From positions 1 to 64,000 of IMG/VR virus record IMGVR_UViG_3300023175_001370: a stretch of DNA of 64,000 nucleotides; one strand, given 5' to 3'. The notes under the pieces are model-generated. The model had not been told where the DNA came from and ran no database searches. It saw only the letters and a list, made by a program, of their open reading frames with translations. Both the position numbers and the translations under genes were made by a program. Position 1 is the stretch's first letter. Every line of letters starts with the position of its first letter. Of this stretch, positions 5,463 to 62,121 are shown piece by piece. This DNA is from a virus.

Positions 5463-5801
5463 ATGAGAAAAGATAGCTTTTGGTGGATAGCACCTGAATA
5501 TTTCAGTAGATGGAGATTATTTCCACGTGCTTTTATTACGATGTATATCTATCTACTCTGGAGAGTAGTTGAGTGGTTCATGGCATTGCCTGATCCGTCA
5601 ATGGAACAAGCAGGTCTAGTTTCAGTTATCGTTGGCGCCGGCGCTGCGTGGTTTGGTCTATATGTTAATTCAAGTTCATCTACCTTTGTCGCTGAGGTTG
5701 ATACAAGACAAACAGGATCTATGGGTGGTTCAACTAAAATGACTGCTAAAGAAAAGCGTGACTATAATGAATATAATGATTATGACGGAGATAAGTTTTA
5801 A
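5463..5801 (+). CDS. Small two-helix membrane protein, holin-like
   Basis: A 112-residue protein with two hydrophobic helices, at about residues 20-40 (ITMYIYLLWRVVEWFMAL) and 50-68 (GLVSVIVGAGAAWFGLYV), and a polar Lys/Glu/Asp/Asn-rich C-terminal tail. The start at 5463 is preferred over an upstream in-frame codon because it follows the ribosome-binding site AAGAGGTG and gives a protein beginning MRKDSFWW. Two helices, small size and late expression fit a holin or a holin-like membrane protein. No lysin gene is adjacent, so this is only likely. It overlaps the next gene by one base (TAATG). Confidence 0.5.
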   Translation: MRKDSFWWIAPEYFSRWRLFPRAFITMYIYLLWRVVEWFMALPDPSMEQAGLVSVIVGAGAAWFGLYVNSSSSTFVAEVDTRQTGSMGGSTKMTAKEKRDYNEYNDYDGDKF

Positions 5802-6256
5802 TGAAGTCTTTTAAGCATCACATACGTCTTGGTTTAGACGAAGAACTTGATAAGCATGATATATCAGGCATACTAACAGTTTTAACAAAGTCTGTACCTA
5901 ATATGTTTGAAGCTAAAGAAGAAGGCTCGGCTGTTCACTATCACACTGAGGGCGATACACATATGTATGACTTTAAGATAAGCCGTTCATTAACAGAAGC
6001 GGAAACTGAAGTAATATTAAAACTTATTGAAGAATGGACAGATAAAGATTTTGTCTTAGAAATAACAACAACAGAAGATTATTTTCTACCAGAAACAGAA
6101 TATGAAATGGATATAACTGCTATTAAACACAATCGTTGGGTAGATACTAAAGTACAAGAGGGTTGGAGATACGGTTTAGAATTTAGCGAAGAACACAAGA
6201 CTGATCCTAGAATGAGACCGTACCACGAACTAACAGAAAAGTTAAAGAATATGTAG
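5801..6256 (+). CDS. RyR-domain protein
   Basis: A 151-residue protein with two parts. Residues 1-100 are an acidic, unrecognised domain. Residues about 103-150 match the RyR repeat family (named from ryanodine receptors): a W-x-D-x-K-VQEGWRYG core, then EEHKTDPRMRPYHEL, which is the order of conserved positions in that family. RyR domains also occur in bacterial and phage proteins, where their role is largely unknown; ligand or nucleotide binding has been proposed. It is coupled to the holin-like gene by a TAATG junction. Confidence 0.6.
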   Translation: MKSFKHHIRLGLDEELDKHDISGILTVLTKSVPNMFEAKEEGSAVHYHTEGDTHMYDFKISRSLTEAETEVILKLIEEWTDKDFVLEITTTEDYFLPETEYEMDITAIKHNRWVDTKVQEGWRYGLEFSEEHKTDPRMRPYHELTEKLKNM

Positions 6257-6317: not shown

Positions 6318-6857
6318 ATGTCTGGTACAAAGAAAAGTTACAATCTCAATGAAAAGAATTATTTTAAATTCTTTGGGATACAACAAAAACAAAATATTAG
6401 TGTGCGTAGCCTAACAGCACATTATAAGAAGATCCTTACCATTCTTAAGAATGAAGAGGATAGCTTTTCCAATAGAGAAAAAATTGATTTTGCTACACGT
6501 TCATTTGAAACATTGGCGGATCCGATTTCCCGTGCAAGATATTTAATTGAACTAAACGGCTACGAAAGCGATGTTAGAGATAGTGCCGAACCAAGTGATT
6601 TTGTTTTTGTAAATCAACTTAATCATCAATACGAAACCGCTAATACAGTTGAAGAGATTGAAGAGTTTATACTAGAACTTAAAAGTCAAACTACATTTAT
6701 CAAAGAACAGATAGAAGAAAGTATTGACATCTACGAAAACTACAAAATTGCTGCAGGTCTTTTAAACAGGTTTTATGAAATATCAAATATTCATAACAGG
6801 TCTAAACAAAAGAAAACAGAAATAGAAGCAGGAATTAAGTATGTTGTATTTGACTGA
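6318..6857 (+). CDS. HscB-like Fe-S co-chaperone without an HPD motif
   Basis: A 179-residue protein with the layout of HscB, the J-domain co-chaperone that delivers IscU to HscA. The N-terminal YFKFFGI corresponds to the YFTLFGL-type start of HscB. The middle has the DFATRSFETLADPISRARYLIELNGYE segment typical of the family. The C-terminal part is the helical client-binding domain. The loop that should carry the invariant His-Pro-Asp of J-domains reads KNEED (about residues 44-48), so Hsp70 ATPase stimulation is probably lost. Two A-type carrier genes follow directly, the first overlapping by 17 nt, which supports a role in Fe-S cluster handling. It could be a scaffold-binding variant or a decoy. 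Confidence 0.65.
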   Translation: MSGTKKSYNLNEKNYFKFFGIQQKQNISVRSLTAHYKKILTILKNEEDSFSNREKIDFATRSFETLADPISRARYLIELNGYESDVRDSAEPSDFVFVNQLNHQYETANTVEEIEEFILELKSQTTFIKEQIEESIDIYENYKIAAGLLNRFYEISNIHNRSKQKKTEIEAGIKYVVFD

Positions 6858-7164
6858 GACAGCGGAAAAACGAATTAAAAAATGGACAGAAAACGAAAGT
6901 GATAAGATTGTAAGAATATCAATAAAAACAGCCGGATGTACAGGTCTTATGTACGAAGTTGTACTAGATAATTCTTACAACATACTTGAAGATCATGTTA
7001 TAAATTATAATGGTATTAGCATTCTAGTAGAAAATAAATACTTGAATGCAATAAACGGTGCCACCCTTGATTATGTCACCGAGGGGTTAAATTCTCATTT
7101 TGAGTTAATAGATAATCCAAATGAAAAAGCAAGATGTGGGTGTGGGGAGAGTTTTACGATATGA
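6841..7164 (+). CDS. A-type Fe-S carrier (IscA/HesB-like), copy 1
   Basis: A 107-residue member of the IscA/SufA/ErpA/HesB family. The three cluster-ligand cysteines are present: one in TAGCTG near residue 35 and two in the C-terminal CGCGESF motif. A-type carriers accept Fe-S clusters from scaffolds and pass them to apo-enzymes. The gene overlaps the HscB-like gene upstream and shares an ATGA junction with a second A-type carrier downstream. A single copy of this family is known from other marine phages; the tandem arrangement with an HscB-like gene is less usual. Confidence 0.85.
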   Translation: MLYLTETAEKRIKKWTENESDKIVRISIKTAGCTGLMYEVVLDNSYNILEDHVINYNGISILVENKYLNAINGATLDYVTEGLNSHFELIDNPNEKARCGCGESFTI

Positions 7165-7484
7165 TATTTACGGAAGCGGCCGCGGCAAGAGCAAAAGAGA
7201 TAATCGAAGAACAGGGTGAACAATCGTCAACTGCGTTACGAGTATATGTAGAAGGCGGAGGGTGTCATGGATTTAGCTATGGATTTACATTTGCTAATGA
7301 TATAGAAGATGATGACACCGTAATAGAAACAGATGATGTTAAGTTGGTAATTGACAGTGCTAGTATTATGTATCTAAGTGATGCTAAGATAGACTTTATA
7401 ACAAGTATGCATGGCGACAGATTTACAATAGATAACCCAAATGCTACTACAACGTGTGGGTGTGGGTCCAGCTTTTCTATATAA
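7161..7484 (+). CDS. A-type Fe-S carrier (IscA/HesB-like), copy 2
   Basis: A 107-residue A-type carrier with GGGCHGFSYG holding the first ligand cysteine and a C-terminal CGCGSSFSI. The start at 7161 (MIFTEAAAARAKEII) overlaps the previous stop as ATGA; a longer in-frame start at 7134 would lie inside the preceding gene. The two carriers differ clearly in sequence, so they may serve different clients, as IscA and ErpA do in bacteria. A late-promoter motif follows immediately. Confidence 0.85.
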   Translation: MIFTEAAAARAKEIIEEQGEQSSTALRVYVEGGGCHGFSYGFTFANDIEDDDTVIETDDVKLVIDSASIMYLSDAKIDFITSMHGDRFTIDNPNATTTCGCGSSFSI

Positions 7485-7487: not shown

Positions 7488-7496
7488 GATAAATAC
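7488..7496 (+). promoter_or_regulatory. Late-promoter-like motif GATAAATAC
   Basis: Exact motif copy starting 4 nt after the stop of the second A-type carrier and 36 nt before the ATG at 7533. Confidence 0.6.
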
Positions 7497-7532: not shown

Positions 7533-7991
7533 ATGATATTTTTACGTTGGTGGCTTTTCTTTTGCCTAACAATCCTAGCAACAACTGTTTGCTACTACTT
7601 TGGGTTCTTTAATGAACTACTAGACAAAGACGCAACACGACTTTCATTCGTAATTATCGCAGTCTATTTTTTAGCATCAACATATGTAGGAAAACTAACA
7701 TATGACCAACGTAGAGGAAAAGATTATTCAACAGGTATGAATGTATCTTGGTTCATAAGTGAATCTCTACTTACATTAGGTATGATAGGCACAGTTGCTG
7801 GTTTCATTATCATGTTGGGTGACAGTTTTGGATCAATAGATACAGCCAATCCAGAGACTCTAAAAGAAGCACTAAGTTCAATGGCTCTCGGTATGAGTAC
7901 AGCATTATATACAACATTAGTCGGTCTAGTCCTTAGTCAGGCTCTAAAGATACAATTAGTAAATCTTGAGTCTGGAGAGGATGATGGCTAA
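7533..7991 (+). CDS. MotA/TolQ/ExbB-family proton-channel-like protein
   Basis: A 152-residue membrane protein. Hydrophobic segments lie at about residues 5-27, 37-55, 73-95 and 118-142. The third and fourth carry LLTLGMIGTVAGFI and ALGMSTALYTTLVGLVL, the signature of the MotA/TolQ/ExbB channel fold, where these helices line a proton path. It is shorter than bacterial ExbB (about 240) because the long cytoplasmic parts are missing. GGAG 6 nt ahead favours the ATG at 7533. The next gene, an ExbD-like protein, overlaps the end, as expected for a 5:2-type stator pair. The role in a phage is unknown. Confidence 0.7.
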   Translation: MIFLRWWLFFCLTILATTVCYYFGFFNELLDKDATRLSFVIIAVYFLASTYVGKLTYDQRRGKDYSTGMNVSWFISESLLTLGMIGTVAGFIIMLGDSFGSIDTANPETLKEALSSMALGMSTALYTTLVGLVLSQALKIQLVNLESGEDDG

Positions 7992-8646
7992 TAAAAATAA
8001 ACAAAGATTTAAAAGTACTACTGGTCTGAATGACCTGTTATTCAACTTATTAGTAGGATTTGTATTTTTGTTTATTGTAGCATTTTTATTAATCAATCCC
8101 CCTACTAAAAAAGAAGATGCACCAAAGAAAGCAGAATATTTAATCATTATTGAATGGGACACAGTATCAAATGATGATGTTGATTTATGGGTGCAAGACC
8201 CAGGAAATGTAACTGTTTCATTTACACGAAAAGAAGGCGGTCTACTTAACCTAGAAAAAGATGATTTGGGTGTTAGTAATGACCAGTGGATTACACCACA
8301 AGGCGAGCGTGTAACTATTCCAATCAACCGTGAAGTTGTAACAATGCGTGGCATTAAACCAGGCAGATACAAGATCGCGGCTCATATATATTCTTACAGA
8401 TATCCTAAAAGAAGAGAGGGTGGCAAAATGGTTGACATAGAAGATAACCGAGAAATTGTTGCTACACTTATAAAAATAAATCCATATGGAGAAAAGTATC
8501 GTGTATCTAAAAAGTATAAACAGCGTGGACAAGTTATAACTCTCTTTAATTTTGAGTTAGACGAAGACGGTAATATCACAGCAGTTGATGATAGAAAACA
8601 CAACTTTGTTATGCGTGTTGGCAGTAACTCACCCGGAGGAATATAA
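7984..8646 (+). CDS. ExbD/TolR-like partner with C-terminal beta domain
   Basis: A 220-residue protein with one transmembrane helix at about residues 17-37. Asp17 is at the N-terminal end of the helix, the place of the proton-carrying acid in ExbD, TolR and MotB. The rest is a beta-rich domain with DVDLWVQDP and PGRYKIAAHIYSYRYP, resembling DUF2135/YfaP-like modules. The in-frame ATG at 7981 is equally possible; 7984 has better spacing from GGAG. It overlaps the ExbB-like gene by 8 nt and is followed by a third membrane protein, forming a three-gene cassette behind one late-type promoter motif. Confidence 0.55.
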   Translation: MANKNKQRFKSTTGLNDLLFNLLVGFVFLFIVAFLLINPPTKKEDAPKKAEYLIIIEWDTVSNDDVDLWVQDPGNVTVSFTRKEGGLLNLEKDDLGVSNDQWITPQGERVTIPINREVVTMRGIKPGRYKIAAHIYSYRYPKRREGGKMVDIEDNREIVATLIKINPYGEKYRVSKKYKQRGQVITLFNFELDEDGNITAVDDRKHNFVMRVGSNSPGGI

Positions 8647-8648
8647 AA

Positions 8649-9338
8649 ATGAATCTTTACAACTTTGACTTACTGCCTATTCTGATAGCACTGATCGTAG
8701 TTTCTACAGTTGTGTTATGGATTGCTATTAGAAACTATAAAAATTTTGTATTAATGTTCTTTCTTATACCGTTAACACTTTATAGTGGTTGGACAATCTA
8801 TATAACAGTAGATAGATTATTGGGTTATCCAACAATTGATATATTTGAGAAAGACACAATGTACATTTCACATTTTGAAAATCCAGATATATCAGAATGG
8901 ATTTATGTTTGGGTGATAAAACCAGGTGAAGCCAAACCTAAAGCTATTATGATACCAAATACAGAAAATAATCAAGAACAATTAAGTGAGGCAGAACAGA
9001 AGAGTTCTAACGGTGTTCAAGTATATATGGAAATTGATCCTGACGGAAATGGACAAACATCAGGTGGTGAAATCAATACATATGATTTTCAACAGAATTG
9101 GGGAGCCGCTGAAAAAGAAAAGCAAAGACAGAGTGATCAAAATGAAACACGCATACTTCCAGGACCAGCATCAAACAGTATAACACCGCCTAGTACTGGA
9201 AATAGACCTCAATTAAATTCAGACGAAGTTAATAATCAGCAGATTTGGAGAGACGAAGAATCTACTGAATACGAAGCAATACCAAACCCATATGATTTTG
9301 ATTGGGCAGACGAAGACGCAGACAGTTTTTTACCATAA
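8649..9338 (+). CDS. Two-helix membrane protein of the ExbB/ExbD-like cassette
   Basis: A 229-residue protein with two transmembrane helices at about residues 8-28 and 33-52, then a soluble Gln/Glu/Asn-rich domain of about 170 residues. The first part of that domain contains SEWIYVWVIKPGE. The end is acidic and proline-containing (NPYDFDWADEDADSF), probably disordered. It starts 2 nt after the ExbD-like stop, so the three genes are probably made together. I do not recognise the family. Confidence 0.6.
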   Translation: MNLYNFDLLPILIALIVVSTVVLWIAIRNYKNFVLMFFLIPLTLYSGWTIYITVDRLLGYPTIDIFEKDTMYISHFENPDISEWIYVWVIKPGEAKPKAIMIPNTENNQEQLSEAEQKSSNGVQVYMEIDPDGNGQTSGGEINTYDFQQNWGAAEKEKQRQSDQNETRILPGPASNSITPPSTGNRPQLNSDEVNNQQIWRDEESTEYEAIPNPYDFDWADEDADSFLP

Positions 9339-9353
9339 AATTTAAAATAGTAG

Positions 9354-9387
9354 TTGACAATTCTAATAGAATCTTATATAAGATTCT
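9354..9387 (+). promoter_or_regulatory. Sigma70-like promoter with palindromic operator-like site
   Basis: TTGACA at 9354-9359, 17-nt spacer, TATAAG at 9377-9382. A perfect 20-bp palindrome (9368-9387) covers the -10 box, suggesting a dimeric repressor or activator site. It drives the small gene at 9415. Confidence 0.65.
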
Positions 9388-9414
9388 TATAACTTAATCA
9401 TTAGGAGTACGCAA

Positions 9415-9588
9415 ATGGCACTTTCAGGAATTGAGTGGCACCAACTATCGGTGCTTAGTAACGAACTTAGAGATTTGAGAAATTCAAAACCAAAAAAGGA
9501 CCGAACGTCCGAAGAAGAAGCTATTATACGATATTTAAAAACACGTGTTAACCGACTAGAAGTAAAAAAACTTGAAGCTAGAAGATGA
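9415..9588 (+). CDS. Small hypothetical protein
   Basis: 57 residues starting MALSGIEWHQLSVLSNELRD, highly charged (Lys/Arg/Glu) and predicted helical. TAGGAG lies 7-8 nt upstream. It sits behind a strong promoter with a palindrome and overlaps the next gene by ATGA. Function unknown; size and position suit an early host-takeover or regulatory protein. Confidence 0.6.
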   Translation: MALSGIEWHQLSVLSNELRDLRNSKPKKDRTSEEEAIIRYLKTRVNRLEVKKLEARR

Positions 9589-9836
9589 AAGATAACATTA
9601 TTGACGCAAGAGTCCAGTTCTTAAGTAAAGCACTTATTGACAGACTAGAAGTAATGATACAAAGACAATGTAACTATCACTGTTATTGTTTACATTTAGA
9701 AGAAGATGGCGAAGACTTTATTGAACTTAGGATAAAAGATATTGAAAATAATGTTCACACAGTTATTGACAAAGCACCAGTTTTAGTGTATAGTAATAGG
9801 TATGAAAATGGAAAACCTCTCTTTGAAATCGCATAA
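9585..9836 (+). CDS. Small hypothetical protein
   Basis: 83 residues (MKDNIIDARVQFLSKALIDRLEVMIQ...) with a Cys-x3-Cys pair (CNYHCYC). No family recognised. It is coupled by ATGA to the gene upstream and overlaps the next small frame. Confidence 0.6.
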   Translation: MKDNIIDARVQFLSKALIDRLEVMIQRQCNYHCYCLHLEEDGEDFIELRIKDIENNVHTVIDKAPVLVYSNRYENGKPLFEIA

Positions 9837-9948
9837 AGACTTACAAGAGCGTATAAGCAAAATGCGCAAATGGAAGAGACCAACATACGAACAAATGATG
9901 GAATATCTAGCAATTTATTCTGAAATTTGTATAAGAGAAGGCAAATAG
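9802..9948 (+). CDS. Possible small gene overlapping the previous one
   Basis: 48 residues (MKMENLSLKSHKDLQERISK...), basic and helical, ending in ICIREGK. AATAGG sits just ahead of the ATG; the ATG at 9808 is an alternative start. It overlaps the preceding gene by 35 nt, and its stop is immediately followed by the tRNA promoter. Coding potential is plausible but unproven. Confidence 0.4.
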   Translation: MKMENLSLKSHKDLQERISKMRKWKRPTYEQMMEYLAIYSEICIREGK

Positions 9949-9951
9949 TTC

Positions 9952-9983
9952 TTGACAATCTACTAACAATATGCTATATTGTT
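9952..9983 (+). promoter_or_regulatory. Sigma70-like promoter of the tRNA cluster with inverted repeat
   Basis: TTGACA at 9952-9957, 17-nt spacer, TATATT at 9975-9980. An 8-bp inverted repeat (9965-9972 with 9976-9983) overlaps the -10 box. Confidence 0.7.
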
Positions 9984-9986
9984 AAT

Positions 9987-10056
9987 ATAAGTCAGAAACG
10001 GGTGGCAGCGTAAAATAAGCCCGCAGGGAGCCAAGGTTAGCTCCCTAATAAAATAT
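9987..10056 (+). ncRNA. Structured leader ahead of the tRNA genes
   Basis: About 70 nt between the predicted start site and the first tRNA. It contains a 6-bp GC-rich hairpin (10026-10031 with 10040-10045) and a second CGGG...CCCG pairing upstream. It lacks the T-run of a terminator. It is most simply a processed leader of the tRNA precursor; a small stable RNA is possible. Confidence 0.3.
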
Positions 10057-10131
10057 TCCGGCGTAGCTCAGTGGTAGAGCAGTTGACTGTTAATCAATTG
10101 GTCGTAGGTTCGACCCCTACCGCCGGAGCCA
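10057..10131 (+). tRNA. tRNA-Asn (GTT)
   Basis: Cloverleaf with acceptor TCCGGCG/CGCCGGA, anticodon GTT, T-arm GGTTCGACCCC, discriminator G and encoded CCA. Confidence 0.95.
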
Positions 10132-10135
10132 TTTT

Positions 10136-10211
10136 GCAGGTGTAGCTCAGTTGGTAGAGCATCGGTCTCCAAAACCGAGGGTCCTGGGTTCAAGTCCTAG
10201 CGCCTGTGCCA
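10136..10211 (+). tRNA. tRNA-Trp (CCA)
   Basis: Acceptor GCAGGTG/CGCCTGT, five-base-pair anticodon stem TCGGT/ACCGA enclosing CTCCAAA (anticodon CCA), discriminator G and encoded CCA end. Confidence 0.93.
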
Positions 10212-10215
10212 ATTA

Positions 10216-10305
10216 GGAGAGGTGGCAGAGCGGTTGAATGCACTGGTCTTGAAAACCAGCGTGGGTGAAAGCCCACCGAGGGTTCGAATCCCTCTCTCTC
10301 CGCCA
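10216..10305 (+). tRNA. tRNA-Ser (TGA)
   Basis: Class II tRNA of about 90 nt with a long variable arm (GTGGGTGAAAGCCCAC). Anticodon TGA in the loop between CTGGT and ACCAG; encoded CCA. Confidence 0.93.
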
Positions 10306-10307
10306 TG

Positions 10308-10316
10308 CATAAATAA
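10308..10316 (+). promoter_or_regulatory. Late-promoter-like motif CATAAATAA
   Basis: Motif variant in the gap between tRNA-Ser and tRNA-Thr. It could allow late transcription of the second half of the tRNA cluster. Confidence 0.35.
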
Positions 10317-10336
10317 AAGTGTAAGTTAATTAGCTT

Positions 10337-10412
10337 GCCCCTATAGCTCAGTTGGTAGAGCAACTGATTTGTAATCAGTAGGTCCGCGGTTCGAGTCCGT
10401 GTGGGGGCACCA
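10337..10412 (+). tRNA. tRNA-Thr (TGT)
   Basis: Acceptor GCCCCTA/TGGGGGC with G-T pairs, anticodon stem ACTGA/TCAGT around TTTGTAA (anticodon TGT), encoded CCA. Confidence 0.93.
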
Positions 10413-10428
10413 TAAAAATAAATTGAAT

Positions 10429-10869
10429 ATGTATATAGAGAAATTAAATTTTATTCCAAAAGTCCCAAATAATTTATTACTAACTATTGAAGAGGCAATG
10501 GATAACGAAAACACATATCAAGGTTCTGCGCCAAAAAATATTTATGGTTCTTTTATATGTAACGAAAGTCTATACGATTGGATACAACAATACTTTAATT
10601 ATGAAGTTATTGTGAGATACCAAATTATAGGACAGGACTTGCCTCTACACAGGGATCATGGTATCATTGGAACAAAGGCAAATTATTTAATAACATCTGG
10701 CGGAGAAAATGTTATAACCCAATGGTGGGACGACGAACATAATCCTAGTAAAATGTTATATGAAGAAAAGTGCGATATTAATACATGGTATAATTTAAAT
10801 ATTGAGGAACCACATACTGTTCTAAATGTAAAAGAAACACGATACAGTATAACTGTAAGAAAAAAATAA
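10429..10869 (+). CDS. 2OG-Fe(II) oxygenase-like protein
   Basis: A 146-residue protein with the iron-binding triad pattern of 2-oxoglutarate-dependent oxygenases. LPLHRDHG gives His74 and Asp76, and EPHTVLN gives His129, followed by Arg138 in TRYSITV as the likely 2-oxoglutarate contact. It most resembles aspartyl/prolyl hydroxylase-like phage proteins. The ATG at 10429 is chosen because the longer frame would begin inside tRNA-Thr. It is embedded between tRNA genes. A tRNA or protein substrate cannot be chosen from the sequence. Confidence 0.6.
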   Translation: MYIEKLNFIPKVPNNLLLTIEEAMDNENTYQGSAPKNIYGSFICNESLYDWIQQYFNYEVIVRYQIIGQDLPLHRDHGIIGTKANYLITSGGENVITQWWDDEHNPSKMLYEEKCDINTWYNLNIEEPHTVLNVKETRYSITVRKK

Positions 10870-10870
10870 T

Positions 10871-10955
10871 GCGGATATGGTGAAATTGGTAGACACGCTA
10901 GATTTAGGTTCTAGTGCCGCAAGGCGTGGGGGTTCAAGTCCCTCTATCCGCACCA
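10871..10955 (+). tRNA. tRNA-Leu (TAG)
   Basis: Class II tRNA of 85 nt, acceptor GCGGATA/TATCCGC, anticodon TAG between CTAGA and TCTAG, long variable arm, encoded CCA. It begins one base after the oxygenase stop codon. Confidence 0.93.
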
Positions 10956-10972
10956 ATACAAAGGTAAGCATT

Positions 10973-11065
10973 ATGACTGGTGAAGAAATACTTTTGTGGA
11001 CTACTTTAGGATTTGTAGTCATTATGCTAATATTAATTTTTGTTCTAGTTTTCTGGAACTTATAA
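10973..11065 (+). CDS. Tiny single-helix membrane protein between tRNAs
   Basis: 30 residues: MTGEEILLW, then a continuous hydrophobic helix rich in Leu, Ile, Val and Phe, ending FWNL. AAGGT lies 9 nt upstream. The stop codon abuts the first base of tRNA-Pro, so gene and tRNA are probably on one transcript. Possible roles are an inhibitor or holin-like peptide, but nothing in the sequence decides. Confidence 0.5.
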   Translation: MTGEEILLWTTLGFVVIMLILIFVLVFWNL

Positions 11066-11142
11066 CTCGGTATAGCGCAGTCTGGTAGCGCACTTGTTTT
11101 GGGTACAAGGGGTCGTTGGTTCGAATCCAGCTACCGAGACCA
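11066..11142 (+). tRNA. tRNA-Pro (TGG)
   Basis: Acceptor CTCGGTA/TACCGAG, anticodon stem CTTGT/ACAAG around TTTGGGT (anticodon TGG), encoded CCA. Confidence 0.93.
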
Positions 11143-11144
11143 TA

Positions 11145-11153
11145 TATAAATAT
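11145..11153 (+). promoter_or_regulatory. Late-promoter-like motif TATAAATAT
   Basis: Close match to the T4 late consensus, 8 nt before tRNA-Gly. It could drive tRNA-Gly and the sulfotransferase-like gene late in infection. Confidence 0.4.
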
Positions 11154-11161
11154 AGATATGA

Positions 11162-11236
11162 GCGGGCGTAGCTCAGGGGTAGAGCGTTACCTTGCCAAGG
11201 TAAATGTCGTGAGTTCGAATCTCATCGCCCGCTCCA
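11162..11236 (+). tRNA. tRNA-Gly (GCC)
   Basis: Acceptor GCGGGCG/CGCCCGC, anticodon GCC between TTACC and GGTAA, discriminator T, encoded CCA. Confidence 0.94.
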
Positions 11237-11245
11237 AATTTATAT

Positions 11246-11989
11246 ATGAGAGACAGAATGAAAAATCATAAACAATATACTATATGGGGTCATGCAAGAT
11301 CTGGATCTACTTATCTGGTTAAGATTCTTAACATGTATTTGTATGAGAAGTTTCATCAATCAAATGAATATCATTTAGTAGAAAATGAAGAAATGCTATC
11401 TGGAAAGTTTGATGTATTGCCGAAACATCTGACAAGAGAAAAGATAATTAATTACTGGACAGAATACAACGGCAAAGACGTTTATTCTGTTTGGAAAACA
11501 ATGACAGATTATCAAAACTTGTTGATAGATATACACACAATAAATGAGAAAACTAATTCATTTTCTATCGGTAGAAGAAACTGGAAACATACTGTAATTT
11601 CATATTTAAGAAGTCTGGAAACACAGGTTTGGAATACAGTAGATGATATAGATATCAAAGAAGCACATTATAACAATGTAACATTCCTCGATGTATTATA
11701 TATAACAAAAATGATAGCACAATGGCATAGAGTCACAAGACTATATGAAATGCCATATATTTGGTATGAAGACTTATCATTTACTAGTAAAGATTTAAAT
11801 TTTTTTAATATCAATGATTCTATAAAAATAGATTCGCAATACTTTACAAAGAAAATAACTAAAGATTCTGAATATGAGTTATTTGATGAAATATTAAAGA
11901 AAAATAACATAAACATAAAACGTATCCTAAGACAGTCCAGATTACCATTAGATCCTGACAATTCAAACTTACTAAAAAATATACAATAA
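11246..11989 (+). CDS. Sulfotransferase-like protein
   Basis: A 247-residue protein. Near the N-terminus, GHARSGSTYL (about residues 15-24) matches the PAPS 5'-phosphosulfate loop of sulfotransferases (RSGST). SIGRRNWKHTVISYLRS (about residues 107-123) resembles the 3'-phosphate-binding RDP..VxxSxYxS segment. These enzymes transfer sulfate from PAPS to sugars, lipids or peptides. An ATG at 11258 is an alternative start. It lies 9 nt after tRNA-Gly and probably shares its transcript. The C-terminal part is divergent, so the substrate cannot be inferred. Confidence 0.5.
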   Translation: MRDRMKNHKQYTIWGHARSGSTYLVKILNMYLYEKFHQSNEYHLVENEEMLSGKFDVLPKHLTREKIINYWTEYNGKDVYSVWKTMTDYQNLLIDIHTINEKTNSFSIGRRNWKHTVISYLRSLETQVWNTVDDIDIKEAHYNNVTFLDVLYITKMIAQWHRVTRLYEMPYIWYEDLSFTSKDLNFFNINDSIKIDSQYFTKKITKDSEYELFDEILKKNNINIKRILRQSRLPLDPDNSNLLKNIQ

Positions 11990-12040
11990 ACATAGTAGAT
12001 AACATTTCTATCTTTTATGTAAATATACATGGGAGAGAGA

Positions 12041-12520
12041 ATGTTAGATCCAGTAACAGCTATTAGTGCGGCAACAGCCGCATATAACGGTATTAAAACT
12101 ATGATTAGTACCGGAAAAGAGATATCAGATATGGGTGCCCAACTAGGTAGTTGGGCAAAATCTATATCCGATTTAGACTTTGCACATGAACGTGCTAAAA
12201 ATCCTCCACTGTTTAAAAAAATGTTAAGTTCTAATATAGAACAAGAGGCATTAGAAGCCTGGGCACACAAAAAGAAGGCGCAGGAAATGAGAGAGGAACT
12301 ACGTGGGTATATTTCATTATACTACGGTCCATCGGCGTGGGACGAGATTGTTAGAATTGAATCCAAAATGCGTAAAGAACGCAGAGATATGGAATACGCA
12401 GCAATAGAACGCAAAGAAGCAATTATTAATTTTGCTGCAGGGGTAGCTTGTTTTATTATTGGTGTTTTTGTATTAGTAGGTGTAATTTATTTAATTGGAG
12501 TCAATAACGGTCGCTTTTAA
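12041..12520 (+). CDS. Tail-anchored membrane protein of unknown function
   Basis: A 159-residue protein. It begins MLDPVTAISAATAAYNGIKT, continues with a charged coiled-coil-like helical region (about residues 45-125), and ends in a single hydrophobic helix (about residues 131-155) with a short tail. GGGAGAGAG before 12041 supports this start; an in-frame ATG at 12029 is possible. From memory, proteins with this MLDPVTA opening recur in marine T4-like phages without a known role. The C-terminal anchor suggests an inner-membrane or lysis-timing function. Confidence 0.6.
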   Translation: MLDPVTAISAATAAYNGIKTMISTGKEISDMGAQLGSWAKSISDLDFAHERAKNPPLFKKMLSSNIEQEALEAWAHKKKAQEMREELRGYISLYYGPSAWDEIVRIESKMRKERRDMEYAAIERKEAIINFAAGVACFIIGVFVLVGVIYLIGVNNGRF

Positions 12521-12536
12521 TAAAAGGAGCCCGAAA

Positions 12537-12752
12537 ATGAAGTTTTTATACATAGATGTAAAAGATGGAAAGTTGGTTGGAGTATTTAAAAACATAGCAG
12601 GCAATGTGAACTATTTCACTAAAGAAGAAATACTGGAGCAAATAGAAAAAGCGAAAGTATTAAACAGAAGAACAATGCTTAATGAATGTAAAGAAGCATT
12701 ACATGCTATTCAAACACACAAAAAACCAAAGAAATGGTGGAAATTCTGGTAA
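12537..12752 (+). CDS. Small hypothetical basic protein
   Basis: 71 residues starting MKFLYIDVKDGKLVGVFKN and ending in a Lys/Trp-rich tail (KKPKKWWKFW) that could bind membrane or nucleic acid. AAAGGAG is 9 nt upstream. It is the last gene before a strong terminator. Function unknown. Confidence 0.6.
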   Translation: MKFLYIDVKDGKLVGVFKNIAGNVNYFTKEEILEQIEKAKVLNRRTMLNECKEALHAIQTHKKPKKWWKFW

Positions 12753-12757
12753 CACTT

Positions 12758-12786
12758 AAAAACTCAGCTTCGGCTGAGTTTTTTAT
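12758..12786 (+). terminator. Rho-independent terminator with TTCG tetraloop
   Basis: An 8-bp core stem (12761-12768 with 12773-12780), extended by A-T pairs, closed by a TTCG tetraloop and followed by a T-run. Confidence 0.92.
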
Positions 12787-12811
12787 TGCATTTGTGTTAT
12801 ACAACTAAAAT

Positions 12812-12820
12812 GATAAATAC
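12812..12820 (+). promoter_or_regulatory. Late-promoter-like motif GATAAATAC
   Basis: Exact motif copy 25 nt after a terminator and 30 nt before the ATG at 12851. Confidence 0.65.
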
Positions 12821-12850
12821 AAATAGTCTGTATTTAATAAGGAACAAAAA

Positions 12851-15058
12851 ATGAGATTATTTGATTTAGTTGAAAATGAAAACACAAACCTGGTTGTGAT
12901 TTACCCTGGACGTTTTCACCCTTTCCATATAGGACATGGTAAAGTATTTAAGTACCTAAAAGAAAAATTTAAAGGTGCACAGGTATACATTGCATCATCT
13001 GGTAAAACAGATGGACACAAATCTCCTTTTGCTTTTGACGAAAAGAAAAAAATGATGATGCTTGCTGGTGTTGATCCTAACGCAATTGTACAAACCAAAG
13101 TTCCTTATGTTGCTACAGAGATAACAGATAGATTTGATCCTGACTCAACAGTTGTACTATATGCGGTATCAGAAAAAGATATGTCAGAAGACCCACGATT
13201 TGATTTTCCACAGAACGGTCCTAAGCTAAAGAAGAATGGTGAACCTGCGCACGTTCAAAAATGGAACGGTACGGCAGACGCAAAACCATTACGTGACCAC
13301 TCATACATTGTCACAGTTCCTACATTTACTTTTAAGATACGTGGAGAAGACGTTAATAGTGCGACACAGATTAGAAACATGATTGCGAAAGCAGATGAAA
13401 CGAAGTTAATTCAAATATTACAAGATTTATATGGACGTGATGATATACCATCAAACGTTGTTGATATATTCAAAAGAAAACTTCAACCTTCAACTATGAC
13501 TGAAAGTTGGGAAGAAGAGCCACTATACGAAGCATTATGGGAAGCAGAGTTAAGACATGAATTTTTAATTGAACGTAAACTTACAGGTGGTGAAAAACGT
13601 TCAAAAGAAACTCACTTCAAAAAACTAAAAAAACATAAGAGTGATTTTGTTGATAGATATGGTGACGAAGCCGAAAGTATTATGCATGCTATCGCAACCA
13701 AACGTGCCAAAAATGAAGACGTAGACACTATTGGAAAATCTACTATTAATAAAAGCACAAGAGATGAGTTAAATAAAATGATAGGCATGTCAGGAAAAAC
13801 ATCCAACGATAATGAGGATGATATTGATCCATTTAAACTAGCAGGTGCTGCGGCCGCAGCAGGTATTCCAGCAAGTATGATTGGTAGAAAAATTGGCAAA
13901 GATGTTGTACGAGATATAAAAGGAGATGGGCCTGAAGATAGAAGAGCCCGTGAAAGATTTAAAAAAGATCAGGAAAAGAAAGCTAAAAGAACCCCAAAAT
14001 TTAATAAAAATGCTAACACCAGTACTAAACCTTCAAGTGTTCCTGGAAAAACCTTACCGGGAGTAACAAGAGGTGCAGGTGGTGGTGGAGCAGGTGTTAG
14101 ACCAAATAGAATCGCTGGTGGTGGGAGAAGAATTGAACCAAAACTACGTGGTAATCCTTTTAATATGTTTAACGAAGAAGCAGATTCATTAAATGAATGG
14201 CAAGATGCATGGAATACTTTAAGAAATAGTATACCTGATATAGATAAATTCATGACGGATCATGGATATAATCCAAATTCTACTGCGTCAATAAAACGTT
14301 TTATACAGAAAAATCCAAACTATATTGATATTAACGGAAAAACATTAGCAAAAGGTGCTAACCTGCCTGACTTTTTGTTTAAATCTATTGCATCAAAAAA
14401 AGTTGGTGACGCTGGAGCGGATGCATTAATCAAAGCCCGTGAAATGTTAAAATCACAACACCCTGAGGCGTGGAAACAATTCACTCAAGGTAATCCTCAA
14501 GCTGCACTAAAAGCATTGGGGTTAAGTGAAGCTGTAGCAAAAGCAATACTAGAACATATTGAGCGTGGTGTACCATTCAGAGAGTGTATCTTCCGTCCAG
14601 GTAGTAAATCATTTAGAGAATTCTATCGTGGTCTACGTAATCTAAATTCTGTCGGTCTATTAGAAATGGATTGGGAAGATGAAGAATTATTGGAAACAGA
14701 TATCGGCGAACTAGTAAAAATTGAAGGTGAAATTGTTCCATTAGATGTACCATTTTTAATGGAAGAAGAACTTGACGAAGCAGAATATAATGGAAAGCAA
14801 GTAAAACTAAACTCGCCAAAGCGTGGGGGACCTAAGAAGTTTTATGTGTATGTTAAGAACCCAAAAACAGGCAGAGTTAAAAAAGTAAGTTGGGGCGATA
14901 AAGGTCTTAGCGTCAAAGCAAAGAACCCAGGTGCAGTTAAAAGTTTTGTTGCTAGACATAAATGTAAGCAAAAGAATGATAAAACAAAAGCAGGTTATTG
15001 GGCATGTAGAACACCACGTTATAAATCATTAGGTGTTAAAGGTGGCACATGGTGGTAA
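12851..15058 (+). CDS. Nucleotidyltransferase fused to a large virion-type region
   Basis: A 735-residue protein. Residues about 15-200 form a cytidylyltransferase-like (HxGH) nucleotidyltransferase: GRFHPFHIGHGK gives HIGH, and SATQIRNMI matches the ISSTxIR loop. Members include NMN, pantetheine-phosphate and glycerol-phosphate (cyt)adenylyltransferases. The middle (about 240-620) is low-complexity and helical, Lys/Ala/Gly rich. The last 90 residues are a Lys-rich module with RHKCKQKNDKTKAGYWACRTPRY, a probable zinc or structural knuckle. The N-terminus MRLFDLVE|NEN carries an L-x-E site like T4 capsid-targeting sequences, so the enzyme may be packaged in the head. It is a tandem fusion far longer than free enzymes of the family (about 160-340). 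Confidence 0.6.
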   Translation: MRLFDLVENENTNLVVIYPGRFHPFHIGHGKVFKYLKEKFKGAQVYIASSGKTDGHKSPFAFDEKKKMMMLAGVDPNAIVQTKVPYVATEITDRFDPDSTVVLYAVSEKDMSEDPRFDFPQNGPKLKKNGEPAHVQKWNGTADAKPLRDHSYIVTVPTFTFKIRGEDVNSATQIRNMIAKADETKLIQILQDLYGRDDIPSNVVDIFKRKLQPSTMTESWEEEPLYEALWEAELRHEFLIERKLTGGEKRSKETHFKKLKKHKSDFVDRYGDEAESIMHAIATKRAKNEDVDTIGKSTINKSTRDELNKMIGMSGKTSNDNEDDIDPFKLAGAAAAAGIPASMIGRKIGKDVVRDIKGDGPEDRRARERFKKDQEKKAKRTPKFNKNANTSTKPSSVPGKTLPGVTRGAGGGGAGVRPNRIAGGGRRIEPKLRGNPFNMFNEEADSLNEWQDAWNTLRNSIPDIDKFMTDHGYNPNSTASIKRFIQKNPNYIDINGKTLAKGANLPDFLFKSIASKKVGDAGADALIKAREMLKSQHPEAWKQFTQGNPQAALKALGLSEAVAKAILEHIERGVPFRECIFRPGSKSFREFYRGLRNLNSVGLLEMDWEDEELLETDIGELVKIEGEIVPLDVPFLMEEELDEAEYNGKQVKLNSPKRGGPKKFYVYVKNPKTGRVKKVSWGDKGLSVKAKNPGAVKSFVARHKCKQKNDKTKAGYWACRTPRYKSLGVKGGTWW

Positions 15059-37700: not shown

Positions 37701-37730
37701 TATAAATACTAAATCAACATTTTGTTGATT
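37701..37730 (+). promoter_or_regulatory. Late-promoter motif TATAAATAC with leader hairpin
   Basis: TATAAATAC at 37701-37709 is the classic T4 late form. An 8-bp hairpin (37712-37719 with 37723-37730) follows in the expected leader, before AAGGAAC and the ATG at 37747. Confidence 0.65.
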
Positions 37731-37746: not shown

Positions 37747-38613
37747 ATGAACTTTATAAAAAAAGCGGCTAATTTTCTTGCCGAAGCGATTAGAGGTTTA
37801 TGGATATATAGACTTGTACGTTCAGTTATAAAAAATCCAATATATTTAATATTGGTAATTCTAGTTGGTGCCTTATCAGCAAATCAAATAAACATATACT
37901 ATGATAAGTTTATTGTAGAATACAAACGATTGAACACAGAAAAGAAAGAAAAAGAAGAGAACCCATTAGATCATTTAAAGTTCGAAAAGATTGACGATTT
38001 TCTATACACATTAACAGGTCAAGTTGGAGATGGCGATTGTGATAAAATATCACCACAAATGCCTGAAAACTTCACCCTTATACTAGAAAGCCCAGGAGGT
38101 AATCTAGCAGAAGGATCATGTCTAGCAGCACATATCAAACTACGTAATGTTGTTACTGTTGTACGTGATACACCTATTTTAAATTCAGAAGGTAAAGTTG
38201 TTTATACACCCGGTAAAGTGGGTGAAGAACTGGAGATAGACTACATGAAAGATAAGACAGTTTGTGCTTCAGCATGTGGTCTAATGTTTTTGGGAGGAGA
38301 CAAAAGATATCTCATTGGTAATGTTTGGTTTGGTATTCACGGGCCCGGCACTCCAGAAGAGTTTATCAGTAGAATGCACCCTAGACAAGCAGAGTCAGGT
38401 GCATATAGAACAGCATCAAATTTACTTGGACTATTGGAAAGTTTAGGGGTAAAAGACCCACAAGTAAGAAAACTGTTCATACAAATTCCCAATCAAACTA
38501 TGTATTGGCTACATCCTAGAGATTTCAACTCTAAACCAGGACTTATCGAATTAGCCACTAATTATAATAATTTTTGGGGATTGACTACAGCAAACCCAGT
38601 GGGTGGATTATAA
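37747..38613 (+). CDS. Membrane-anchored ClpP/crotonase-fold serine peptidase-like protein
   Basis: A 288-residue protein with a transmembrane helix at about residues 31-48 and a ClpP-like domain after it. LILESPGGNLAEG (about 111-123) is the oxyanion strand. TVCASACGLMFLGG places a nucleophile Ser175 between two cysteines. WFGIHGPG supplies His198. A matching acid is probable near the C-terminus. It resembles COG3904-type periplasmic proteins. It is transcribed with an SbmA/BacA-like transporter 18 nt downstream. Substrate unknown; a membrane-protein protease is likely. Confidence 0.65.
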   Translation: MNFIKKAANFLAEAIRGLWIYRLVRSVIKNPIYLILVILVGALSANQINIYYDKFIVEYKRLNTEKKEKEENPLDHLKFEKIDDFLYTLTGQVGDGDCDKISPQMPENFTLILESPGGNLAEGSCLAAHIKLRNVVTVVRDTPILNSEGKVVYTPGKVGEELEIDYMKDKTVCASACGLMFLGGDKRYLIGNVWFGIHGPGTPEEFISRMHPRQAESGAYRTASNLLGLLESLGVKDPQVRKLFIQIPNQTMYWLHPRDFNSKPGLIELATNYNNFWGLTTANPVGGL

Positions 38614-38631: not shown

Positions 38632-39666
38632 ATGCTAAAGAGTTTCTTTTGGACACCCAAGTATGTCCTATACGCTTGGCTAATGTTAGCTTGGCTACTT
38701 TTTATAGGTTGGTATAATGTTCAAATACTAGTTTATTATAACGCATGGAACCGTGAGTTCTATGATGCTATTCAAACTCTACAAGAAGAAAGATTTTGGG
38801 ATCTATTTTGGGGATTCAATATTGCACGTTTATGGGATTTTATAACATTCGGTATGGATGAAAAAACAACAGTACCTAGTTTCTTAGAAATATTAATTAT
38901 ATATGTACCAATGGCAACATATGCTACTTGGCAAACACAGCGTTATACATTTGCTTGGCGTGAAGCTAATACACACTACTATTTGGAACGTTGGGAGAAA
39001 TCAACAGCGAAGATTGAAGGTGGTTCACAGCGTATTCAAGAAGACTTAATGATTTTCGGTAAGACACTACAATCATTATTTACGGGTTTTGTAAACAAGA
39101 TATTCATTCTTGCTGCGTTTATTCCAGTACTATGGCAATTGAGTGAAGGTCTACCTATCTGGAACGGACAGATTATTCCAGGTTTTCTAGTATGGGCAGC
39201 ACTAACATTAAGTATCGGTGGCACTCTGCTATCATTCTTACTAGGTATTAAACTACCAGGCCTGGAATACAAAAACCAAGTTGTAGAAGCGAAGTTTCGT
39301 AAGAAACTAGTACACAGTGAAGATGATTTTAAAGAGCGCATGACCGAAGACTTGTTCCCAATGTTTGCATCAGTTAAGCGTAACTACTATCGTCTGTTCA
39401 ACTACTATATGGGCTTTGGTGTATGGCAAACAGGCTTCTCACTGATTGCTGGTAACGTTGCTATTATTGTTCTAGCACCAAGTTACTTTGCTCAGTTAAT
39501 TACGTTTGGTGTTCTTATTCAGGTGCTTAACGCATTCGGTAGAGTTGAGGGTGCGCTGACATACTTCATTGATAGATGGACAACAATTGTTGACTTCCAA
39601 TCAGTTATTAAACGTCTGCGTGAATTCAATAAAGTATTAGACGAAGCAGAAGCACAAGAAGCATAA
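38632..39666 (+). CDS. SbmA/BacA-family peptide transporter
   Basis: A 344-residue polytopic membrane protein matching SbmA/BacA along most of its length: NAWNREFYDAIQTL, RYTFAWREANTHYYLERWEKSTAKIEGGSQRIQEDLM, GIKLPGLEYKNQVVEAKFRKKLVHSEDD and GRVEGALTYFIDRWTTIVDFQSVIKRLREF. The E. coli protein has 406 residues, with an extra N-terminal helix pair absent here. SbmA/BacA uses the proton gradient to import peptides such as microcins and proline-rich antimicrobials. GCGGAGG precedes the ATG. The phage role is unknown. Confidence 0.9.
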   Translation: MLKSFFWTPKYVLYAWLMLAWLLFIGWYNVQILVYYNAWNREFYDAIQTLQEERFWDLFWGFNIARLWDFITFGMDEKTTVPSFLEILIIYVPMATYATWQTQRYTFAWREANTHYYLERWEKSTAKIEGGSQRIQEDLMIFGKTLQSLFTGFVNKIFILAAFIPVLWQLSEGLPIWNGQIIPGFLVWAALTLSIGGTLLSFLLGIKLPGLEYKNQVVEAKFRKKLVHSEDDFKERMTEDLFPMFASVKRNYYRLFNYYMGFGVWQTGFSLIAGNVAIIVLAPSYFAQLITFGVLIQVLNAFGRVEGALTYFIDRWTTIVDFQSVIKRLREFNKVLDEAEAQEA

Positions 39667-41603: not shown

Positions 41604-42731
41604 ATGTCTCAAGTTTCACTAAATGATATGGATGTTCGTCTAGTTCGTCCTAGTGATATTCGTGCAGAAATCAACTACGCTATGAATCGTAAGCGTCCGG
41701 TCTTCATCTGGGGTCCTCCCGGTATTGGTAAGTCTGAGATTGTTGATTCAATCACACAAGAGCGTTCAGGCTACATGATTGACATGCGGCTTGCGCTAAT
41801 GGAACCCACTGACTTGCGTGGTATTCCTGTTCCTAACACTAACACAGGCTTGATGGAGTGGCTTCCTCCTGCTGATTTGCCTACTCAAGAATTAGCAGAT
41901 CAATTCGAATGCGTTGTTCTGTTTCTTGATGAAATGAATCAGGCTCCTCAGTCTGTACAAGCTGCTGCTTATCAGCTAATTCTTAATCGTCGGTTGGGTA
42001 ACTATCGTCTTCCTGACAATGTTCTAATCGTTGCTGCTGGCAATCGTGAAAGTGATCGTGGCGTAGCGTATCGTATGCCTAGCCCACTTGCTAACCGTTT
42101 TGTTCACTTAGAAATGACTACTGATTTCGAGGACTGGCAGACTTGGGCATTACAAAACAATATCGATCCTGAGGTCGTAGGTTATGTAACTGCTAACAAG
42201 ATGGATCTTATGAACTTTGATCCTCGCACTGCGTCACGGGCGTTTGCTACTCCTCGTTCATGGACTTTTGTTTCTCAGATGCTTCCTCAAGAAGGTGAGC
42301 AAATCTCAGACAGTCGTTTACATGATTTGATTGCAGGTACTGTTGGTGATGGTATCGCAACTAAGTTCATGGCACACCGAGCAATTGCTGGTAAACTGCC
42401 TAATCCGACAGATATCTTGTCAGGTAAAGTAAAGACACTGGGTTCAGAAGCAAGCGAAATTTCTGCGATGTTCTCATTAACTGCTTCACTTTGTTATGAG
42501 TTGAAGGACTTTGTTGATCGTAATGGTAAAGAGAAAATGGACGAGTTGTACAAAATGGCTGACAACTTCTTCAACTTTATGATGGATAACTTTGAAACAG
42601 AAATGACCGTACTTGGTGGTCGTACTGCACTGAAAGTTTACAAACTTCCTCTTGAACCTCGCAAAGTTCCCTGCATTGAAAAGTTCTTTAAGAAGTATGG
42701 CAAACTAATCATTGATGCACACAACGCATAA
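41604..42731 (+). CDS. MoxR-family AAA+ ATPase
   Basis: A 375-residue AAA+ protein with Walker A GPPGIGKS (residues 37-44), Walker B VVLFLDEMNQA, sensor 1 AAGNRESD, arginine-finger-type SPLANRF and a C-terminal helical part. MoxR ATPases act as chaperones with partner VWA proteins to load cofactors or activate enzymes. The next gene encodes such a VWA/metallopeptidase partner, so the two very likely work together. Each has its own promoter. Confidence 0.88.
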   Translation: MSQVSLNDMDVRLVRPSDIRAEINYAMNRKRPVFIWGPPGIGKSEIVDSITQERSGYMIDMRLALMEPTDLRGIPVPNTNTGLMEWLPPADLPTQELADQFECVVLFLDEMNQAPQSVQAAAYQLILNRRLGNYRLPDNVLIVAAGNRESDRGVAYRMPSPLANRFVHLEMTTDFEDWQTWALQNNIDPEVVGYVTANKMDLMNFDPRTASRAFATPRSWTFVSQMLPQEGEQISDSRLHDLIAGTVGDGIATKFMAHRAIAGKLPNPTDILSGKVKTLGSEASEISAMFSLTASLCYELKDFVDRNGKEKMDELYKMADNFFNFMMDNFETEMTVLGGRTALKVYKLPLEPRKVPCIEKFFKKYGKLIIDAHNA

Positions 42732-42752
42732 GGGGAGCATTGCTCCCTTTAA
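42730..42752 (+). terminator. Terminator-like hairpin after moxR
   Basis: A GC-rich 6-bp core GGGAGC with GCTCCC, ATT loop, flanked by A/T pairs and TTT. The T-run is short, so termination may be partial. Confidence 0.6.
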
Positions 42753-42756
42753 TTAC

Positions 42757-42784
42757 TTGACACTATCTAAATATGTGTTATATT
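42757..42784 (+). promoter_or_regulatory. Sigma70-like promoter
   Basis: TTGACA at 42757-42762, 16-nt spacer, TATATT at 42779-42784, ahead of the gene at 42816. Confidence 0.7.
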
Positions 42785-42815
42785 AGTAGAGTAGTTAGAA
42801 AAAAGGACGAATCAC

Positions 42816-47676: not shown

Positions 47677-48302
47677 GTTTTGACTTCTTAACATTAACAG
47701 CATATGGTGATCAAATAGAATTAAAGCCAACTATAGATGGAAAGAAGTTTGTTCGCTGGTCAGAAGACAACTTCAAGTATGTTAGATATAATCCAAGACA
47801 CGATGTTAATCGTTGGGGGTTAAGTATAACTAGTTTAGATGGTGGGCTTAGTGGTGTACCAGATTTAGATAGCCTACATCAATATAATATAGAAAACAAT
47901 ACTAGTCATGCTGAAACAGACTTTGATGTAGTCACACCAGTTTACGAACAATATAAAGAACTTCAACAAATTATTGAACCATGGAAAAATTACATGTTTC
48001 GTTCACATGTAATCAGATTAGGCCCGGGAGGTTTTTTCCCACCACACCGTGACACATATCATTATGATATCAATACTTTTAGATTAATTGTTCCATTACA
48101 CAATTGTAACCCACCAAATGTTTTCTTCAACTTAGAAGAAAACGCAATGCATTGGGAACAGGGACGTATGTACTTTCTTAATACAACTAAAGTACATACC
48201 CTTTTTAATGCTAGTTTTGATAATAGTTACTGGATTGTTTTTAACATAAAATGTAATAAAGATTCGGTAAACGCTGTTTTGAGAAACTTAAAACAAAATT
48301 AG
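47673..48302 (+). CDS. Aspartyl/asparaginyl hydroxylase-like 2OG oxygenase
   Basis: A 209-residue protein with FPPHRDT (His125, Asp127), RLIVPLHNC and TTKVHTLFN (His175), the HxD...H pattern of Fe(II)/2-oxoglutarate oxygenases of the aspartyl hydroxylase-like type. ATGA overlap with thyA upstream. The end meets the first gene of the minus-strand radical-SAM operon tail to tail with 4 nt overlap. Substrate unknown; it may act in the same modification system. Confidence 0.7.
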   Translation: MSFDFLTLTAYGDQIELKPTIDGKKFVRWSEDNFKYVRYNPRHDVNRWGLSITSLDGGLSGVPDLDSLHQYNIENNTSHAETDFDVVTPVYEQYKELQQIIEPWKNYMFRSHVIRLGPGGFFPPHRDTYHYDINTFRLIVPLHNCNPPNVFFNLEENAMHWEQGRMYFLNTTKVHTLFNASFDNSYWIVFNIKCNKDSVNAVLRNLKQN

Positions 48303-50984: not shown

Positions 50985-50996
50985 TATGTATTCTCT

Positions 50997-57904: not shown

Positions 57905-57908
57905 GCTT

Positions 57909-57917
57909 ATATTTATC
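57909..57917 (-). promoter_or_regulatory. Late-promoter-like motif GATAAATAT (minus), 4 nt from ATG
   Basis: Minus-strand copy ending 4 nt before the ATG of the nine-gene minus operon. It is one half of a divergent pair in a 40-nt gap. Confidence 0.6.
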
Positions 57918-57931
57918 TTATTAACTACGAA

Positions 57932-57940
57932 CATAAATAA
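57932..57940 (+). promoter_or_regulatory. Late-promoter-like motif CATAAATAA, 4 nt from ATG
   Basis: Plus-strand motif ending 4 nt before the ATG at 57945. It is the other half of the divergent pair. Confidence 0.55.
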
Positions 57941-57944
57941 CAGT

Positions 57945-62097: not shown

Positions 62098-62121
62098 TGT
62101 ATTATATACTCACTTAATTAT

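Follow-up and report, generated by a model that had tools for sequence, protein, structure and literature searches.

Three closely packed membrane-protein genes in a marine, T4-like phage are best read as an uncharacterised lineage of 5:2 motors that probably drives some work on the cell envelope during late infection. Ion-driven motors of this type power flagella, Ton and Tol transport, gliding, type 9 secretion and Zorya defence. The genes, termed ORF1, ORF2 and ORF3, span positions 7533-9338 of the window, the 64 kb portion of a 90 kb IMG/VR virus record that was analysed, and correspond to the interval picked out in a preliminary description of this DNA. Based on their family membership, residues, predicted topology and conservation, it is very likely that together they specify an ion-driven, probably proton-driven, inner-membrane motor of the ExbB/TolQ/MotA superfamily. 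The family-B DNA polymerase encoded in the window has its closest relatives, at 46-48% identity, in two jumbo phages, Sinorhizobium phage Phosso and Agrobacterium phage Atu_ph07, making an alphaproteobacterial host plausible.

Organisation and subunits of the cassette

The cassette and the element preceding it are arranged as follows.

7488..7495, + strand: late-promoter-like octamer GATAAATA (T4-type NATAAATA), 45 nt upstream of ORF1, recognised by sequence and positional enrichment
7533..7991, + strand: ORF1, A subunit, a 152 aa MotA/TolQ/ExbB-family channel protein, based on a PF01618 match, relatives and alignment with E. coli ExbB/TolQ
7984..8646, + strand: ORF2, B subunit, 220 aa, based on an AlphaFold2 model, conservation of Asp17 and a weak YfaP match
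8649..9338, + strand: ORF3, third subunit, with two helices and an LGYP motif, based on an AlphaFold2 model and its status as a conserved neighbour

ORF1 and ORF2 overlap by 8 nt, and a 2 nt gap separates ORF2 from ORF3; the ends of the cassette genes typically abut or overlap, with median spacings of -8 nt (ORF1-ORF2) and -1 nt (ORF2-ORF3). The order ORF1-ORF2-ORF3 is constant in phages, Rhizobium phages and bacteria, and all three genes are under purifying selection (dN/dS of 0.07-0.28, against two relatives). The reality of the cassette is confirmed, at a level far above chance expectation.

The genes had been described as a late operon, which is borne out by the octamer, presumably a late motif of the T4 type, as in T4 and cyanophages. 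Seven of the 15 NATAAATA octamers in the rightward arm precede a gene start by 25-60 nt, where random placement of sites would give 0.63, and two of these seven head the cassette (7488) and a ClpP-like/SbmA gene pair (37701). Expression of the cassette is thereby placed, probably, late in infection. The region immediately upstream (6318-7484) encodes an HscB/J-like protein and then a pair of Fe-S carriers of the IscA-like kind (PF01521). Close relatives share these genes, and in some of them ORF1 is preceded by an acyl-carrier-protein-like gene. These Fe-S (IscA-like) and HscB-like genes were considered as members of the system and rejected, as they recur in only 9-13 loci. A phage protein with an RyR domain (PF02026, E=9.5e-10) is encoded at 5801-6256, and seven tRNA genes (Asn, Trp, Ser, Thr, Leu, Pro and Gly) are found at 10057-11236, just past the cassette region.

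The proposed MotA/TolQ/ExbB-type nature of the first protein holds. ORF1 matches PF01618 (MotA_ExbB) over residues 80-135 with E=3.5e-7 and 30.4 bits, relative to a curated cut-off of 22.9, and the same domain is matched by 18 of 19 aligned relatives. In an alignment with E. coli proteins, residues T87 and T128 coincide with the threonines on the ion path of ExbB (T148/T181) and TolQ (T145/T178), and the glycines of both channel helices match as well; T87 is kept in 171, and T128 in 180, of 182 sequences, and D33, G83, G86 and G131 are likewise invariant or near-invariant in the family. Four helices are predicted, with a cytoplasmic loop of about 20 aa between TM2 and TM3, and the protein stops directly after the fourth. 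Sequence profiles of PDB entries gave weak matches only, to MotA (8gqy) and ExbB (5sv0), and a search of PHROGs found no family for ORF1.

A single helix bearing Asp17, then a beta domain, had been anticipated for the second protein, and the AlphaFold2 model agrees (pLDDT 88.8), predicting one helix at residues 8-37 that includes Asp17, a linker, and a beta-sandwich at 50-202; numbering is from the ATG at 7984, the alternative start being at 7981. The alignment used for predicting the structures of ORF2 and ORF3 comprised the window and IMG/VR sequences. Set beside the corresponding helices of E. coli ExbD, TolR and MotB, the ORF2 helix has its aspartate in matching local register, the expected proton-binding position by analogy. 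The preliminary description had staked its reading on an acidic residue here in homologues, and Asp17 is indeed present in 163 of 174 unique ORF2 homologues, including every phage copy. All 11 exceptions are bacterial, mostly from one Hyphomicrobiales group, and have V or A at the site and, a few residues N-terminal to it, an Asp. It had been expected that such homologues would also lose the ORF1 threonines; this was wrong, as the threonines are retained. One subgroup without Asp17 (loci L251-L258, L240, L277 and L278), again with the ORF1 threonines, has a Lys in the membrane helix. These bacterial proteins represent a natural variant with which ion coupling could be probed.

The beta-sandwich carries the motif DxDLWVxDP...DDLG...GxY, and W58, D65, D67, L90, D93, D94, G96, E117, R122, G127 and Y129 are invariant or nearly so among the 174 homologues. 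A Pfam search with ORF2 and 18 relatives, at thresholds up to E=1, found no match to ExbD/TolR (PF02472), OmpA or any other domain, and the family profile scored near zero bits against each of E. coli ExbD, TolR and MotB. There is some resemblance to E. coli YfaP (DUF2135), in a weak collinear alignment of 14.7 bits from one chosen comparison, in which two motifs, xWDxxxxDxDLxVxxPxG and GxYxVxxxY, occur in the same order; scanning 19 family members with Pfam gave no DUF2135 match. PDB sequence profiles returned nothing credible for ORF2 or ORF3, and PHROGs only chance-level matches to either.

The helices predicted for the third protein are found at residues 9-28 and 33-58 of an AlphaFold2 model (pLDDT 75.5), followed by a small alpha/beta domain at 70-165 and a low-confidence acidic tail. 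The tail, 64 residues with 14 D/E against 3 K/R, is present here as described, and is variable and missing from several relatives, for which reason it is not a defining feature. No match was found between ORF3 and the TonB and TolA families. The charge pattern suggests that the C-terminal parts of both ORF2 and ORF3 face the periplasm, where the small domain of ORF3 is probably located.

Distribution in phages and bacteria

A scan of IMG/VR with ORF1 identified 15 close relatives, and one with an ORF2 profile gave 462 candidate loci; examination covered the best 80. Clustering of a non-redundant phage set found ORF2 in 82 loci, ORF1 in 80, and ORF3, conserved beside ORF2, in 76, several of the missing genes being accounted for by contig ends. 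Among cultured phages, only those of Rhizobium and Sinorhizobium match, with genomes of 59 to 171 kb; their cassette genes, almost always annotated as hypothetical proteins, were recognised by profiles built with those same sequences included.

The cassette is also chromosomal. GTDB species genomes, queried with a set of closer relatives rather than the divergent 19-sequence alignment, harbour 63 loci, with the three genes in order in nearly all, some of which (for instance L102-L105, L118 and L139) are probably phage contigs binned into MAGs. Members of the ORF2 family were found in 22 of 199 sampled genomes of the Hyphomicrobiales, the order of Filomicrobium, and 22 of 185 of the Gammaproteobacteria, the class of Roseateles, such that 11-12% of sampled species, or roughly one in nine, have the cassette. 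In 40 loci fetched from these two groups, the three genes were present in all 40 by clustering, with ORF3 beside ORF2 in each, and in 39 by profile.

In a tree of ORF2, 74 bacterial sequences are separate from nearly all phage ones. Chromosomal copies from SAR116 are nested among the phage sequences, with modest deep support, and likewise have a short ORF1: the median length of the TM2-TM3 loop is 21 aa in phage copies and 19 aa in SAR116, against 82 aa in bacterial copies. The phage cassette is the short-ORF1 version of an operon of three genes that stands alone on many proteobacterial chromosomes, and exchange between phage and host is likely.

The surroundings of the bacterial operon are varied. 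In relatives of Roseateles, Nevskia, Granulosicoccus and Filomicrobium, it lies in PQQ-dehydrogenase loci, where its neighbours include PQQ dehydrogenase, PqqB, quinoprotein-relay hydrolases, SoxYZ-like carriers and an mxaRSACKL-like run. In Granulosicoccus-type genomes, it directly precedes genes for a MoxR ATPase, a DUF58 protein and a VWA protein, a series that we take to resemble mxaRSACKL; runs of this kind stand directly downstream of the operon at 8127-14240 in locus L156, 8601-14034 in L157 and 5562-9672 in L150. The window itself encodes a MoxR-like AAA ATPase and then a metallopeptidase/VWA-like protein at 41604-44153, and MoxR and VWA genes are likewise found downstream of the Granulosicoccus-type cassettes.

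These loci, and the presence of PQQ alcohol dehydrogenase matches in 17 of 30 cassette-bearing genomes, would fit an auxiliary metabolic function, in which the cassette supports PQQ (methanol/ethanol dehydrogenase) systems, through periplasmic maturation or cofactor uptake for example, and is supplied by the phage to such hosts. Such a function appears improbable, given that the other 13 genomes, mostly streamlined marine ones, gave no match to this enzyme, that only about 8-10 of the 40 sampled bacterial loci have a PQQ-type context, and that the genes commonly found beside phage copies include none for PQQ. As a plain PQQ/methanol-dehydrogenase accessory, the cassette was accepted for a subset only. 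Other bacterial copies are situated between the fumC and aconitase genes, or next to a Sel1-repeat gene, and with contexts so varied the operon looks like a general, rather than a PQQ-specific, device.

Relation to known motors

The cassette resembles ExbB-ExbD and TolQ-TolR in the channel core of ORF1 (PF01618) with its two ion-path threonines, in the N-terminal Asp helix of ORF2, which has the same local register, and in having a third membrane protein that completes the unit, as TonB or TolA does. It differs from them in that ORF1 is just 152 aa long, with its cytoplasmic loop of 20 aa, in that the beta-sandwich of ORF2 has no detectable sequence similarity to ExbD or TolR, and in that ORF3, which matches neither the TonB nor the TolA family, has two helices in place of one. 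With MotA-MotB it shares a four-helix A subunit and an Asp in the helix of the B subunit, but it lacks the large cytoplasmic torque loop and the OmpA-like peptidoglycan-binding domain. Membership of ExbBD/TolQR or MotAB proper was therefore rejected, as ORF2 has neither an ExbD/TolR (PF02472) nor an OmpA-like domain. The preliminary view of a minimal proton-driven motor survives in the A/B pair with its expected Asp, the channel threonines and the constant third protein; the label 'ExbD-like', taken strictly, does not, the periplasmic domain of ORF2 having no sequence relation to ExbD, TolR or OmpA. The possible similarity to DUF2135/YfaP consists of the two motifs collinear with the ORF2 beta domain, in an alignment that is weak and unaccompanied by a Pfam match in the 19 members.

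ZorA-ZorB, as presented in one report (PMC11890865), has a long cytoplasmic ZorA tail, an OmpA-like ZorB domain and ZorC/D/E effectors. The cassette shares the MotA/ExbB core and lacks all three of these features; furthermore, Zorya is an anti-phage defence, whereas the cassette is phage-borne. Membership of Zorya was rejected on the grounds that ORF1, at 152 aa, has no tail and that no ZorC/D or ZorE family recurs among the neighbours. ORF1 does match the ZorA models of PADLOC weakly (E about 1e-5), as any member of the family would, and this similarity is the one point in favour of interference with host motors or Zorya, whereby ORF1 and ORF2 would co-assemble with, or titrate, ExbBD, TolQR, MotAB or ZorAB. 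The chances of this are slim: the cassette has the full set of A, B and third subunits, its channel residues are conserved and its periplasmic domain is distinct, unlike a truncated decoy, and bacteria maintain this set on their chromosomes too.

Among published systems, an ExbB gene in chronic phages of Lentisphaerae was put forward as a candidate auxiliary metabolic gene (PMC11361711); the accessible part of that source names ExbB alone, with no ExbD, third subunit or linkage to SbmA or ClpP-like genes. The literature on stators, in the portions accessible, deals with ExbBD, TolQR, MotAB, GldLM, AglRQS and ZorAB, and a 2025 survey of stator homologues describes generic transporters with unknown appended domains and, in those portions, no phage-encoded unit; neither a complete phage-borne unit nor a B subunit of the ORF2 type was found in this material (PMC12505986, PMC9389320, PMC11890865). 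A literature search, with most subscription papers and preprints outside its coverage, retrieved no description of the three-gene system.

Linked genes and the proposed task of the probable motor

A second module in the window, 28 kb from the cassette, contains the following features.

37701..37708, + strand: late-promoter-like octamer TATAAATA, 46 nt upstream of the ClpP-like gene
37747..38613, + strand: membrane-anchored ClpP-like protein, predicted to be periplasmic, recognised by eye from SPGG and CASAC motifs, with no match in Pfam
38632..39666, + strand: SbmA/BacA-family peptide importer (PF05992, E=9.5e-78, 262 bits against 24)

Clustering of neighbouring genes indicated that, beyond the cassette itself, the commonest in phages are the SbmA/BacA importer (26 loci), a ClpP-like protein (20) and a Clp protease (20); the window has both SbmA and ClpP-like genes, and each of the two modules stands behind a late-promoter-like octamer. 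A reciprocal search with the SbmA of the window identified 54 phage loci, 53 with a ClpP-like gene close by and 24 with the cassette within 8 kb, and the ORF2 family is present in ten of the 16 larger contigs among them. Similarly, SbmA is encoded by 14 of 19 larger cassette-bearing virus records, while just four of 50,697 cultured-phage records have a match to it. The link to peptide import is not universal, as SbmA is absent from the other five records and from six Rhizobium and Sinorhizobium phage genomes; in three phages of these hosts, a gene for a secreted trypsin-like protease is beside the cassette or a few genes off. One phage contig (the source of both locus L029 and locus L192) has ORF3 directly before the ClpP-like/SbmA pair, with ORF1-ORF2 elsewhere, tying ORF3 to both modules. 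These linkages are associations, due in part to shared contig ancestry, rather than proof of function.

By homology with ExbBD and MotAB structures, we infer a 5:2 stoichiometry, proton flow and topology for the cassette motor, such that an ORF2 dimer would have its helices enclosed by five ORF1 subunits. Within this ring, lined by T87 and T128, Asp17 would be protonated and the dimer thereby moved stepwise as an axle, and the beta-sandwich of ORF2, with the small domain of ORF3, would pass the force to a periplasmic target other than those of ExbD, TolR and MotB, the nature of which is a matter of speculation. Most likely, the motor would supply the energy for remodelling or harvesting material of the periplasm or outer membrane, and peptides would return to the cytoplasm via SbmA/BacA and thereby supply late virion synthesis. 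We favour this harvesting of peptides, tentatively, because it makes best use of the linked genes. Points against the overall reading are that ORF2 gave no ExbD/TolR or OmpA domain, that SbmA is missing from some of the phages and is 28 kb away here, that many bacterial copies have unrelated neighbours, and that one bacterial subgroup has dispensed with Asp17. In its fullest form the proposal, equally tentative, is of an undescribed branch of 5:2 motors in which the B subunit is DUF2135-like and the third subunit, with its two helices, is obligate, present on proteobacterial chromosomes and in many phages, where it would be part of a late five-gene machine (the cassette, a periplasmic ClpP-like protease and SbmA) that couples the proton-motive force to stripping of host envelope proteins and peptide import.

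The lysis, block of superinfection and host-motor interference raised in the preliminary description found no backing in the gene neighbourhoods, and bacteria retain the same operon chromosomally. Foremost of the alternatives, ahead in falling order of the PQQ-type auxiliary function, host-motor interference and lysis, is envelope modification or superinfection exclusion, in which the motor would reshape or pull the host outer membrane, or block entry, so protecting cells late in infection from being infected again. The late-promoter-like element at the cassette, the predicted periplasmic domains and the occurrence of the cassette in large phages, and beside a secreted protease in an integrase-bearing Rhizobium phage, are all consistent with this, but it leaves the linkage to a peptide importer unexplained and sits poorly with the same operon being found at diverse sites on bacterial chromosomes; it is, on balance, a little less likely than peptide harvesting. 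A lysis device, with a late channel dissipating the proton-motive force and so timing or causing lysis, would likewise suit the late-promoter-like element and the membrane channel homology. It is very unlikely in view of the conserved periplasmic domains, the homologues on bacterial chromosomes and the lack of consistent lysis-gene neighbours in the phage neighbourhood set; lysis and the poisoning of host motors are both made less likely by bacteria keeping the operon as their own.

Should phages run a motor of their own for late envelope or nutrient work, a new side of host takeover would be revealed. With hundreds of candidate virus loci, culturable Rhizobium phages and a presence in 11-12% of sampled species, the family is directly testable, having tractable hosts in Rhizobium, Sinorhizobium and Roseateles and clear point mutants. 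Elsewhere in the window, a long and mostly leftward block at 48299-63803 encodes, on a by-eye reading, many radical-SAM-like proteins together with ATP-pyrophosphatase-like and SGNH-like ones, a concentration of radical-SAM-like genes that is unusual for a single phage.
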